Made by a program: the position numbers and the translations under genes
In this document: piece by piece, positions 27,088 through 31,626 of the stretch
Position numbering within the stretch: position 1 is the stretch's first letter
Layout of the letters: each line of letters opens with the position of its first letter
Notes under the pieces: model-generated
Told to the model about the DNA's origin: nothing
The model's database searches: none
The model's input: the letters and a program-made list of their open reading frames with translations, nothing else
Source: Gemmatimonadota bacterium
Lineage (GTDB): Bacteria > Gemmatimonadota > Gemmatimonadetes > Longimicrobiales > Gaopeijiaceae
Assembly: GCA_007126575.1 (NCBI GenBank)
Contig: SLBA01000016.1
Location: forward strand, 1-64,000
Direction of reading: 5' to 3'
DNA length: 64,000 nt

Positions 27088-28425
27088 TCAACGCCGCCGG
27101 AGTCGGGCGGCGAACGCCCCATCGGTCCCCGTGCGCTGCGGAAGCGCCCGAAGAAAGGCGCCATCCAGCGCCTGGACCGGAGGGCCCTTCGTCGAGTCCG
27201 GCGTGGAGTCCGGCCCGTCCTCCACGATAAACCCGGGATGCTCCCGAAGGAACTCCTCGACGCGTCCTTCGTTCTCTTCCGGCTCCAGCGAGCAGGTCGA
27301 ATAGATGAGTAGTCCCCCGGGTCGCACGGCCCCGGCCGCGCCCGCGAGGATCCGGTTCTGCACCCGGGCCATCCGCTCGATGTCGCCAGGCTCGAGCCTC
27401 CAGCGCGCGTCCGGGTGCCGGGACAGCGTTCCGGTTCCGGTGCAGGGCGCGTCGACCAGGACCAGATCCCGGGGTCGAAGCGGCACGGCCTCGGCCGCGG
27501 CGACCACCGTGGGGATCCGTGCCCGCAGCCTCCGCGAGGTCTCTGCGACCCGCTGGAGTCTCGGCGCGGAGCGATCCAGTGCGACCACCCGGGCTCCTTC
27601 GCTCCAGAGCCCCATGGTCTTACCTCCGGGAGCCGCGCAGAGGTCCGCCGCCTCGAGGCCCTCGACCGGGCCCGCGTGCGCGACGACCCACGCCGCGGCC
27701 GGATCCTGAACGATCGAGGGCAGCGCGCCCAGCGCCCGAAGGGGATCGGTCCCTGCCTCGAGTCGCACCGTCCGGCTTCCCGGAGGACCCGGCCGGGCCT
27801 CGATCCCCACCCCGGCCAGACGCGACACGGCGCTGGCCAGGGTCTCCCCCCCGACCATCAGTCGCAGATACAGCCCCGGCACCGTGTTGTTGAACTCCAC
27901 CAGGCGCCGGGCCTCGTCGGGACCCCACCGGTCGACCCACCGGTCGATCAGCCAGCGCGGGTGCGATCCCCACGACGTCAGGTACCCCCGGGGGTCCTCG
28001 TCGAACGAGGGGAATCGCGTCTCGTCCGCGCCCTCCCGCCCCAGGGAGCGGAGCACCCCGTTCGTCATCCCGGCCAGCCCCTTTCCGGCGAGCGCCTGCA
28101 CCTGGTCGACCGTCTCGGAGACGGCCGCGTAGCCCGGCACGCTTCCCATGTGGAAGAGCTGGTAGGCCCCCATCCGGAGGAGATTCGTGACCCCGGACCT
28201 CAGGCTCCCGAGTCCGTCGCGCAGGTGCAGGTCGAGCAGGTAGTCGAGGCGTCCGCGATACCGGACCACCCCGTACGTCAGCTCCTGAACCCAGGGGCGG
28301 TCCTCGGGGGCCAGGGTCTCCAGCGAGGCCTCCCATGCCCGATCGAGTCTCCGGTTCCGGGAGACCTCTTCGAGGATCCGAAAGGCGACCTCGCGAGGCC
28401 CCCCCTTCTTCGTCGGGCGGTTCAG
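27088..28425 (-). CDS. rsmB: RsmB, 16S rRNA m5C967 methyltransferase (probable CTG start)
   Basis: The frame upstream of the GTG at 28269 continues the family's N-terminal NusB-like domain (REVAFRILEEV, DRPWVQELTYGVV) without a stop, so a start at 28269 would cut the domain. No ATG, GTG or TTG occurs upstream in frame before thiG codons. The only well-placed codon is CTG at 28425, overlapping the thiG stop as CTGA, just like the many ATGA/GTGA junctions here. This gives 445 aa, close to E. coli RsmB (429). SAM-binding LCAAPGGKT, DAPCTGTG and the catalytic STCS motif are intact. It methylates C967 of 16S rRNA. Confidence 0.9.
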   Translation of the reverse strand: MNRPTKKGGPREVAFRILEEVSRNRRLDRAWEASLETLAPEDRPWVQELTYGVVRYRGRLDYLLDLHLRDGLGSLRSGVTNLLRMGAYQLFHMGSVPGYAAVSETVDQVQALAGKGLAGMTNGVLRSLGREGADETRFPSFDEDPRGYLTSWGSHPRWLIDRWVDRWGPDEARRLVEFNNTVPGLYLRLMVGGETLASAVSRLAGVGIEARPGPPGSRTVRLEAGTDPLRALGALPSIVQDPAAAWVVAHAGPVEGLEAADLCAAPGGKTMGLWSEGARVVALDRSAPRLQRVAETSRRLRARIPTVVAAAEAVPLRPRDLVLVDAPCTGTGTLSRHPDARWRLEPGDIERMARVQNRILAGAAGAVRPGGLLIYSTCSLEPEENEGRVEEFLREHPGFIVEDGPDSTPDSTKGPPVQALDGAFLRALPQRTGTDGAFAARLRRR

Positions 28426-29234
28426 TCGAGCATCCCGGTGGTGGGCGACGAGGGAACGGCCACCTCGCGGCGGGGCATGCGACCCGCCAGCCAGGCGAGT
28501 CGTCCGGCGCGGGTGGCGAGCCGCATCGCGTCGGCCATCGCGACCGGGTCATCGGCCACGGCCACCGCGGTGTTCATGAGCAGACCGTCGACCCCCTGCT
28601 CCATCGTCAGACAGGCGTCCGAGGCGGTCCCCACCCCGGCGTCGACGATCACGGGCACCGAGAGGCGGGACTTGATCTCGCGGATGTAGAAGGGGTTGAT
28701 CAGCCCGAGCCCGCTCCCGATTGGGCTGGCCAGCGGCATCACCGAGACGCACCCGGCGTCCTCGAGCCGGAGCGCCGAGATGAGATCGTCGTTGGTGTAG
28801 GCCATCACCTTGAAGCCCTCGTCGCACAGGACCTTCGCCGCCTCGAGCGTCGCCTGCACGTCGGGCAGGAGGGTCGCCTCGTCACCGATCACCTCGAGCT
28901 TGATCCACTCGTTGAAGCCGGCTGCGCGGGCGAGCCGTGCGTACCGGATCGCCTCGTCGGCGGTGTAGCATCCCGCGGTGTTGGCGAGAAGGAAGAACTC
29001 GTCGGGGTCGAGATGATTCAGGATCGCCTCGTCGCTCGACCGGTCCAGGTCGACGCGGCGCACCGCCACGGTCACCATCTCGGTCCCGCTGGCGCGCAGG
29101 GCGGCCATCATCGTCTCGTTGTCCCGGTACTTTCCGGTCCCCAGGATCAGGCGCGAGGTGAACTCGCGGCCTCCCATCTCGAGGGGGCGGTCGGTGCCGG
29201 CCAGTGGGGCTTCGGTCTGGGTGCGTTCACTCAT
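28422..29234 (-). CDS. thiG: ThiG, thiazole synthase
   Basis: The product is 270 aa. ILGTGKYRD (30-38) and NTAGCYTADEA (85-95) are present, as are the Schiff-base lysine in WIKLEVIGD (Lys112), the phosphate-binding PLASPIGSG, and VDAGVGTASDA. All are diagnostic of ThiG. It builds thiazole phosphate from 1-deoxyxylulose 5-phosphate, dehydroglycine and ThiS thiocarboxylate. The ThiS domain is encoded in the fusion gene 60 nt upstream. A dehydroglycine supplier (ThiO or ThiH) is not in the window. The last bases overlap the proposed rsmB CTG start. Confidence 0.97.
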   Translation of the reverse strand: MSERTQTEAPLAGTDRPLEMGGREFTSRLILGTGKYRDNETMMAALRASGTEMVTVAVRRVDLDRSSDEAILNHLDPDEFFLLANTAGCYTADEAIRYARLARAAGFNEWIKLEVIGDEATLLPDVQATLEAAKVLCDEGFKVMAYTNDDLISALRLEDAGCVSVMPLASPIGSGLGLINPFYIREIKSRLSVPVIVDAGVGTASDACLTMEQGVDGLLMNTAVAVADDPVAMADAMRLATRAGRLAWLAGRMPRREVAVPSSPTTGMLD

Positions 29235-29294: not shown

Positions 29295-30164
29295 TCAGCC
29301 GCCACCGACGAAGTGGACGAGTTCGAGCTGGTCGCCCTCTGCGAGGGTGACCTCGGCGTGCGCCTCGCGGGGGACGATCTCGCGGTTGCGCTCGACCACC
29401 ACGGTGCCGGGAACGAGCTCCAGCGCCTCGAGCAGGCCGGCAATCGTGAGTCCGTGTGGGACTTCACGCTCGTCTCCATTCACGACCAGCGTCATCGTCC
29501 GGGTCGAGGGGTCGGTCTTAGAGCTCATCGGGGGGTCCTCCCTTCCATCGGGTTCGAGCCGAGCCAGGTAGTCGTCGAGTGCGCGGCCGGGGTCCGGCGC
29601 GTCCCAGACGCCGCGGATCACCGCGACCCCGTGGGCACCGGCCCGCCGGAGCTCGCCCACCCGCCCTGGTGTCACGCCCCCCACTGCGAGGAGCGGGAGC
29701 CCTCGGGCCGCGGCCAGGCGCTCCACCCGTGCGGGCCCGGCCGGCTCGCGTCCGGGGTGCGATTCGGATCGGTAGATCGTGCCCACCATAAGGTAGTCTA
29801 GACCCTCCCCCGTCGTCTCCCCCTCGCCGTGAATCGACCGTCCGAGGAGGACCTCGTCGCCGAGCAGGGAGCGGGCCTCGGCGGGGGGCAGGCTCCGTCC
29901 CCCCAGGTGGACACCGGATGCCGACCCCCGCAGCGCCATCGCGACGTCGACGCGGTCGTTCACCAACAGGTGCGCGCCGGTGGCGGCGGCCGGGCCGGCG
30001 AACGCAACCCCCAGCTCGTACAGACGCCGTCCCGGTGTCCGGGGCCCCCTGAGGTGCAGGGCCAGTCGCCCCCCTCCCCGCTCCATGAGGGCCCCGGCCC
30101 GCCGGAGAAGCCGCTCGTCGGCCAGCAGGTCGTCGTTCGTGAGCAGGTGAAGGCGCGGGAGCAT
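29295..30164 (-). CDS. ThiE/TenI-like domain fused to ThiS sulfur carrier
   Basis: One 289-aa frame carries two thiamine modules. Residues 1-205 form a ThiE/TenI barrel (VNDRVDVA at 68-75, GVHLGG at 84-89, [16 protein letters not shown] at 123-138). Residues 224-289 form ThiS, ending in the required C-terminal Gly-Gly (HFVGGG). The segment that carries the conserved Arg and Lys for HMP-PP binding in ThiE reads HLRGPRTPG, lacking the Lys. This favours a TenI-type thiazole tautomerase over thiamine-phosphate synthase, though it is not decisive. Because ThiS is at the C-terminus, its Gly-Gly stays free for adenylation and sulfur transfer. An internal ATG with a strong ribosome-binding site may also yield free ThiS. 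thiG follows 60 nt later. Confidence 0.85.
29536..29546 (-). promoter_or_regulatory. Internal Shine-Dalgarno ahead of a ThiS start (ATG 29528)
   Basis: GGAAGGGAGGA on the minus strand lies 7 nt before the in-frame ATG at 29528 (Met213 of the fusion). It is among the best ribosome-binding sites in the window and would start a free ThiS of 77 aa within the fusion gene. Confidence 0.5.
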
Positions 30165-30175
30165 GGCGGATCCGA

Positions 30176-31114
30176 TCAGTCGAAGCGCTCCCCGACGTTC
30201 GGCCCACCCCCGCGCAGCCAGTCGGCGGTCTTCATGCGCCGCTTGCCCGGCGGCTGGACCTCGAGGAACCGGAGCGAGCCCTCCCCGGCCGCCACCACGA
30301 GCCCGATCTCGGGATCGGCGCGCAGGACGGTGCCCGGCGGGGCGGGGCGACCGGCCTCGCCCTCGACGACCCGGGGCTGGAAGAGCTTCACGGGCTCCCC
30401 CCCGAGGGTCGACCAGGCGCCCGGAACCATATCCATCCCGCGAACCAGGTTCGCCACCTCGCGGGCCGCGCCCGACCAGTCGATCCGAGCGGTATTCCGG
30501 TCGATCTTGGGCGCCAGGGTCGCCCGCTCGTGGTCCTGCTCGCGCGGCTCGAGCACGCCAGCCTCGAGCAGTGCAAGCGCCTCGAGCAGGGCCTCGGCGC
30601 CCAGCTCGGCCAGGCGGAGATAGACTCCGGTCGCCGTGTCGTGGGGGGCGATCGGGAGACGCCGCTGCAGGAGCACCGGGCCCTCGTCCATCCCCTCGGT
30701 CATCTGCATGACCGAGATTCCCGTCTCGGGCAGCCCCCGGATCAGGGCCCAGTTCACCGGGGCTGCGCCCCGCAGCTCCGGAAGGAGCGAGGCATGCACG
30801 TTGACCGAGCCGTGCGTGGGAAGCTCCAGCACGCCGGGCACGAGGATGTGCCCGTACGCCACGACGACCGAGAGGTCGGGACCGAGCGCCGCCAGCTCGT
30901 CGACGAAGGCCTCCCCCCGGGGACGCTCGGGGGTCAGGACCGGAAGCCCTTCGGCCTCGGCGACCGTCCTCACCGGAGACGCCCTCAGCTTCCGCCCACG
31001 TCCCGCCGGCCGGTCAGGCTGGGTGACCACACCGACCACCTGAAATCCCTCTCCCGTGAGCGCCCGCAGTGAGGGCACCGCAAAGTCCGGGGTTCCCCAG
31101 AAGACGATCCTCAC
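30176..31114 (-). CDS. fmt: Fmt, methionyl-tRNA formyltransferase
   Basis: The product is 312 aa (E. coli 315). The GTG at 31114 overlaps the def stop (GTGA) and begins exactly at the family's N-terminus ([12 protein letters not shown]). The formyl-THF site is complete: [16 protein letters not shown] with Asn/His, and GMDEGPVL with the catalytic Asp context. The C-terminal tRNA-binding domain contains GTVL and [12 protein letters not shown]. It formylates initiator Met-tRNA. Deformylase lies immediately upstream in the same unit, the usual def-fmt pair. Confidence 0.97.
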
Positions 31115-31626
31115 CCCGAGGCCTCTTCGGCCAGCAGCTTCCGATACTTCTTGAGGAGCATCCGGCGCTTCAGCGCCGACAGGTGGTCGATGAAAAGCAC
31201 CCCTTCGAGATGATCCACCTCGTGCTGCAGCGCACGGGCGAAGAGCCCTTCGGCCTCGACCGTGATCGGCTCCCCATCGGGGTCGAACCCCTCGATCCGC
31301 ACCCGGGCGGGCCTTCGCACGACCTCGGTGACCCCGGGAATACTGAGACACCCCTCGGGCTCCTTCTCGGTCTCGTTGGAGCTCTCGACGATGCGGGGAT
31401 TGACCAGGGCCACGCGCCCCTCCTCTCCCCCGGCGCTCACATCGACCACGAGCACCTGCCGCGAGATCCCGATCTGGGGGGCCGCGAGCCCCGCGCCCTC
31501 CTCGTAGACCATGGTCTGGAACATGTCGTCGACCAGCCGACGCAGTTCGTCGTCGAAGGCATCGACGGGCGCCGCCGGTTCCCGCAGCACGGGATCGCCG
31601 AGGTATCGCAGTTCGCGGATCGCCAT
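31111..31626 (-). CDS. def: Def, peptide deformylase
   Basis: The product is 171 aa with all three metal-site motifs: GAGLAAPQIG (about 44-53), EGCLSIPG (about 90-97) and QHEVDHLEG (about 133-141). It removes the formyl group from nascent proteins, using Fe2+ or another divalent metal. It sits 5 nt after yajC and overlaps fmt by 4 nt, matching its functional pairing with Fmt. It is of ordinary length, with no extension. Confidence 0.97.
   Translation of the reverse strand: MAIRELRYLGDPVLREPAAPVDAFDDELRRLVDDMFQTMVYEEGAGLAAPQIGISRQVLVVDVSAGGEEGRVALVNPRIVESSNETEKEPEGCLSIPGVTEVVRRPARVRIEGFDPDGEPITVEAEGLFARALQHEVDHLEGVLFIDHLSALKRRMLLKKYRKLLAEEASG

Follow-up and report, generated by a model that had tools for sequence, protein, structure and literature searches.

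The window, by which we mean the whole 64,000-nucleotide stretch of Gemmatimonadota DNA analysed here, carries at 29295..30164 a stop-free reading frame of 289 aa in which a TenI-like (TMP-TENI) barrel is followed by ThiS; this and all other window features described below lie on the reverse strand. An earlier note on this DNA had described one frame joining a barrel to a C-terminal ThiS with a free Gly-Gly end, and the description holds: Pfam detects both domains, TMP-TENI (PF02581) with 117.3 bits (cut-off 27) over aa 7-186 and ThiS with 49.7 bits (cut-off 22.5) over aa 228-289, the fused protein scores 75.7 bits (cut-off 37.45) with the NCBIfam thiS model TIGR01683, and the C-terminus reads VHFVGGG. 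The barrel, assigned by its Pfam match and its residue set, takes up 29529..30164 together with the linker down to an internal ATG, and the remaining 29295..29528 encode, from that ATG, a ThiS part of 77 aa with a free GGG end (TIGR01683 79.7 bits, same cut-off). The in-frame ATG (29526..29528) is preceded, 8 nt upstream, by the Shine-Dalgarno sequence AAGGGAGG (29537..29544), both already pointed out in the earlier note; between the two lies a run of six C (29530..29535), on which that note was silent. A flexible linker is predicted to join two well-folded domains in the fused protein: AlphaFold2 gives two confident domains with a mean pLDDT of 92.6 and low confidence for the linker at about 205-220.

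The frame sits in a row of genes read in one direction, with def and fmt upstream and thiG, rsmB and a PASTA protein downstream. The fmt frame (30176..31351; PF00551 and PF02911) has Pfam domains from aa 81 onwards, its true start being later than the start of the ORF; thiG, the thiazole synthase gene already said to be encoded next door, lies at 28422..29234 (PF05690, 348.9 bits). Rfam gave no match to a known RNA, riboswitches included, in the window. Elsewhere in the genome there is a second ThiS-family protein (G000:C113:880-1113, L003), which ends GMVSGG and by eye is more MoaD-like.

Origin of the fused reading frame

Gemmatimonadales bacterium LCM1.Bin31 (hereafter G001) belongs to the same genus as the window's genome and shares about 89.5% DNA identity with the window over 56,674 aligned bases. 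Its junction, GGAGGACCTCCGATGA, separates two genes, the TGA stop of the barrel overlapping the ATG of thiS as ATGA. The window's junction, GGAGGACCCCCCGATGA, is one base longer, and the extra base falls within the six-C run, between the Shine-Dalgarno sequence and the ATG and just before the ATGA overlap. It is because of this one base that the barrel frame runs on into thiS; with one C removed, the window's barrel would end EDPR, to be compared with EDLR in G001. AAGGGAGG is found in G001 too and, since the same ATG begins thiS there, what had been taken for an added device is the ancestral start of thiS, which still has a ribosome-binding site of its own. In an ATGA overlap, a single base suffices to fuse two neighbouring genes.

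Barrel and thiS stand side by side in most of the 59 genomes searched (the window's own and 58 relatives). They are separate genes in all 29 relative loci read (L005-L033), and likewise in 19 loci of a named collection (L054-L072, some of them from the same genomes); among 44 separate loci, the junction is an ATGA or GTGA overlap in 20, another short overlap in nine and a gap in 15. Within the window's genus, one genome of three has the fusion, the genes being separate in G001 and G002. Judged from these junctions, the fusion has not become established in the window's lineage. Loci L056, L057, L060 and L070 come from assemblies titled as Gammaproteobacteria MAGs, yet their thiS-linked barrels are Gemmatimonadota-like, and the titles look wrong.

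The reliability of the extra base was gauged from the rest of the alignment with G001. The aligned genes amount to 45,533 bases and contain 63 homopolymer runs of at least six bases, of which only the one at the junction has a gap; among runs of five or more, two of 234 have a gap, the one outside the junction lying beside an in-frame 3-base gap. These counts come from 34 chosen intervals, three ORFs having been trimmed at the 5' end, where frame changes fall near doubtful starts. Stops are in register with the G001 stop in 38 of 39 gene-like ORFs, a set picked by substitution pattern to which the fused ORF does not belong. Out-of-frame gaps occur in eight of the 39: five regain the frame inside the gene, and three shift it close to their uncertain starts at the 5' end. 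As the other long runs are free of gaps and the stops keep their register, we judge the assembly not to be prone to homopolymer slips. The earlier note had allowed for a frameshift or a sequencing error joining two genes: the frameshift stands, as a mutation of one extra C relative to G001, while sequencing error at the junction is possible but not favoured, the matter resting on one base in one draft genome.

Constraint on the barrel and thiS

Between the window and G001, the barrel has a dN/dS of 0.36, more than any other of the 28 usable intervals (two of 30 were left out for a wrong frame, indicated by dN/dS above 2); thiS reaches 0.35 on few changes, and the other 26 intervals range from 0.02 to 0.20. 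When changes in the barrel were assigned to the two lineages with each of six outgroups, window-only and G001-only changes numbered 9/7, 8/9, 6/14, 9/13, 7/7 and 6/11. We had considered that the barrel might have decayed faster after the fusion, and rejected this, there being no consistent excess in the window's lineage with the six outgroups. As far as these substitution counts tell, constraint on the barrel is weak in either lineage, with no burst of change since the fusion. Separately, the synonymous distance of thiS (29295-29528) to G001 is unusually low, with a dS of 0.07 against mostly 0.15-0.65, in what is a short gene.

Identity of the barrel

For the comparison of residues, we set 42 thiS-linked rows, the window included, against 16 second, unlinked copies of relatives and numbered the columns after B. 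subtilis ThiE, as deduced from the alignment to 3o15; the 42 rows combine 30 loci of the 59-genome search with 12 of the 80 loci of a further contig search, a few genomes appearing twice (for example L008/L054 and L028/L058). The claim that the barrel lacks the Lys of ThiE and is TenI-like was borne out and extended: Lys61, Asp112 and Lys159, which we take to be pyrophosphate or metal residues, are absent from all 42 linked rows, column 159 being His in every one; His stands at column 132 in 41 of the 42 and, likewise in 41, replaces Gln57. All 16 unlinked copies, by contrast, keep Gln57, Arg59, Lys61, Asn92, Asp93, Asp112, Ser130 and Lys159, and none has His132. The window's barrel has Pro, Ser and His at the Lys61, Asp112 and Lys159 columns, and its His112 aligns with His122 of TenI, presumably the active-site His of that enzyme. 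Because the residue sets differ in this way, the thiS-linked copy can be called TenI-like and the unlinked copy is likely ThiE. The window's barrel is a putative tautomerase.

Curated models place the barrel less readily. The TenI equivalog NF005819 (NCBIfam) gives 83.5 bits for the whole protein and 84.9 for the barrel alone, below its cut-off of 251, and thiE TIGR00693 gives 109.1 bits, below its cut-off of 145.1. The best fold matches in the PDB are the ThiE enzymes 3o63 and 1xi3, ahead of TenI 3qh2, and fold comparison of the barrel does not separate TenI from ThiE. In a tree with partial reference sequences and low support, the barrel does not group with B. subtilis TenI. Since its scores are below the curated cut-offs and B. 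subtilis TenI keeps Lys at the 159 column, the window's barrel, on its sequence, is not of the B. subtilis TenI subtype. It shares with that TenI (PDB 1yad, 3qh2) the TMP-TENI barrel, the His at the ThiE-132 column, the lack of Asp112 and a gene row with thiS and thiG, comparable to the P. apiarius TenI-thiO-thiS-thiG operon as given in the accessible part of its source; it differs in having His at the 159 column, Asp93 where TenI has Gly, and ThiS attached. With B. subtilis ThiE (PDB 2tps, 3o15) it has in common the barrel fold, Asn92, Asp93, Ser130 and an equivalent of Arg59, while it lacks equivalents of Lys61, Asp112 and Lys159 and is not the copy linked to ruvX and mltG; that a ThiE K159A structure exists is seen from the title of a PDB entry.

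In each of the 16 loci with the unlinked ThiE (L037-L052; neighbours named by eye and partly by Pfam), its gene comes after ruvX and mltG. The window's assembly has no second TMP-TENI match, the barrel being the sole one; ThiC and ThiD were found in the genome, and ThiN, a candidate replacement for ThiE, gave no match there. mltG is missing as well, and ruvX matches from base 2 of its contig onwards; G001 likewise lacks mltG, its ruvX starting at base 56 of a contig. As mltG is missing alongside thiE and ruvX stands at a contig end, the true ThiE most likely lies, in both genomes, in an assembly gap over mltG-thiE. The same observations, together with the residues, led us to reject the view that the genome has no ThiE other than this barrel.

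TenI-ThiS fusions elsewhere in Gemmatimonadota

The earlier note had suggested looking for the same fusion in related genomes, and the search found it. With a profile of the fused protein, 395 genomes of the phylum yielded, among the matches listed (to about E 4e-56), at least ten stop-free two-domain frames in at least nine genomes: eight copies from family f6, spread over seven genomes, one from family f7 (G186) and the window's own. The idea that the fusion is unique to the window is overturned by these frames. Family f6 has it in all seven genomes analysed (G091, G096, G220, G282, G320, G355, G394; loci L174, L175, L177-L182); few residues separate barrel and ThiS, there is no internal ATG, and all copies end FVGGG. 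They share with the window the order of the domains and the FVGGG end, and by eye a thiG-like start follows the stop; unlike in the window, the linker is about 15 residues shorter and lacks the internal ATG, and the tree gives the f6 fusion a separate origin. The gene in G186 (L176) is fused with an in-frame ATG at the junction, and a genome of the same genus, G314 (L223), has the genes separate with TGATGA. In the tree, the f6 copies form one clade (support 100), G186 and G314 pair (100) and the window pairs with G001. On this placement, and because G001 and G314 have separate genes, the sequences indicate three independent TenI-ThiS fusions, if the window's is real; among them, the window is the youngest and least certain example. 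His37, Arg39, His112 and His136 (window numbering) are invariant in the ten fused proteins.

Other ThiS-family proteins of f6 were compared with NCBIfam (L205, L208, L209), where the best model was moaD, below cut-off, or were judged by eye (L206, L216, L218), the scope excluding one each in G096 and G282. Among the proteins scanned, and as far as tested, the fused ThiS is the only ThiS in f6; since no other was detected, a tethered ThiS should be able to work. One of the proteins judged by eye (L218 in G220, about 1501-2919) has an N-terminal ThiS/MoaD-like domain on a MoeB/ThiF-like protein with a rhodanese-like end. G320 has two different fused copies, on contigs C67 and C101 (L177, L181), from duplication or mixed strains.

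Discussion

ThiS must travel between ThiF and ThiG for sulfur delivery. Hazra 2011 is reportedly the primary paper on TenI. Our literature search, which covered open-licence papers, found no description of a TenI-ThiS fusion. The available text of Iyer et al. (2006; PMC1779556) describes ThiS-ThiG, ThiS-ThiF and sulfite reductase-ThiS fusions, in which ThiS likewise shares a chain with a partner and, in the sulfite reductase case, also forms the carboxyl end; the partner in the window differs from these, a TenI-like barrel going unmentioned in that text. Among the core thiamin genes of one Gemmatimonadota order, the accessible part of PMC10469786 lists thiC, thiG and thiE.

We suspect that the fusion arose from an ancestral fmt-tenI-thiS-thiG row of Gemmatimonadota, with tenI and thiS overlapping by four bases (ATGA). 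The gain of one base in the upstream C-run would have let the tenI frame miss its stop and continue through thiS, so that TenI and ThiS form one protein whose GGG tail is free; with the Shine-Dalgarno sequence and the ATG still in place, free ThiS is probably made too. By analogy with the fixed fusion of f6, a ThiF-like enzyme could load the tethered ThiS, once adenylated, with sulfur for presentation to ThiG, and the docking of ThiS there would bring the attached TenI-like barrel near the ThiG product, in line with the channelling that the earlier note had put forward as a possibility. To this account as a whole, with a real one-base gain, probable production of free ThiS and a functional tethered ThiS, we give about an even chance; the sequences show the difference from G001, the separate genes of the relatives, the residue set and the independent fusions, and that the mutation is real, that both products are made, that the barrel acts as a tautomerase and that the tether helps is what we infer. 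The gap-free runs elsewhere, the stops in register, the lack of a burst of change in the barrel and the predicted two-domain fold also count in its favour. Against it, a single base of a single draft genome is at issue, one genome in three of the genus has the fusion, the barrel scores below the curated TenI cut-off, and it is the least constrained interval, so that the fusion may simply be tolerated.

The last point leads to a rival in which the mutation is real and without benefit: thiS would use its own start, and the fused protein would be a tolerated by-product or be degraded, a TenI-like enzyme not being strictly needed. The intact Shine-Dalgarno sequence and ATG, the high dN/dS of the barrel and the restriction of the fusion to one genome of the genus all fit; however, the window's barrel has no excess of changes over that of G001, and the f6 fusion has spread to all seven genomes analysed and lost the internal start, which argues that a tethered ThiS can function, and we regard the absence of benefit as rather unlikely. 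About equally unlikely, in our estimate, is an error of sequencing or assembly, under which only five C are really present, tenI and thiS remain a pair of overlapping genes as in G001, and there is no fusion protein here. The whole fusion does hang on a single homopolymer base in a draft of 205 contigs, and in all the nearest relatives the two genes are not joined; the absence of gaps from the 62 other runs of at least six bases, the stops in register and the independent appearance of the same fusion elsewhere in the phylum speak against it.

Two further readings carry far less weight. One might take the fused barrel for the thiamin phosphate synthase (ThiE) of this organism, since it is the only TMP-TENI match in an assembly with ThiC and ThiD and no ThiN found, and since ThiE enzymes come first among its fold matches; with Pro, Ser and His at the three ThiE columns, a second copy that keeps the ThiE residues after ruvX-mltG in 16 of 16 relatives, and a likely gap at just that place in both genomes of the pair, we consider it very improbable. 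A slippery C-run, with some products ending at the old tenI stop and others fused, to give fusion, free TenI and free ThiS together, has the sequence CCCCCC directly before the overlap in its favour; the run is absent in G001, and the junctions of f6 and G186 show none, which leaves this reading barely credible.

Returning to a real and functional fusion, it is conceivable, though we hold it only tentatively and with more doubt than belief, that Gemmatimonadota have repeatedly arrived at tethering the tautomerase to the sulfur carrier, the window representing a first step, with both forms made, and f6 an end state, in which the fusion is the only ThiS. For annotation, our comparison means that two kinds of 'thiE' are to be told apart in the phylum, the thiS-linked one being TenI-like and the one linked to ruvX and mltG likely a thiamin phosphate synthase. 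The f6 fusion is a better experimental subject than the window: its only detected ThiS is joined to a tautomerase-like barrel, which makes it a test of how free the carrier must be and, with the proteins ready for the purpose, of whether TenI acts on the ThiG-bound product. If recurrent tethering is true, the docking of ThiS would deliver in one act sulfur to ThiG and TenI to its unstable product.
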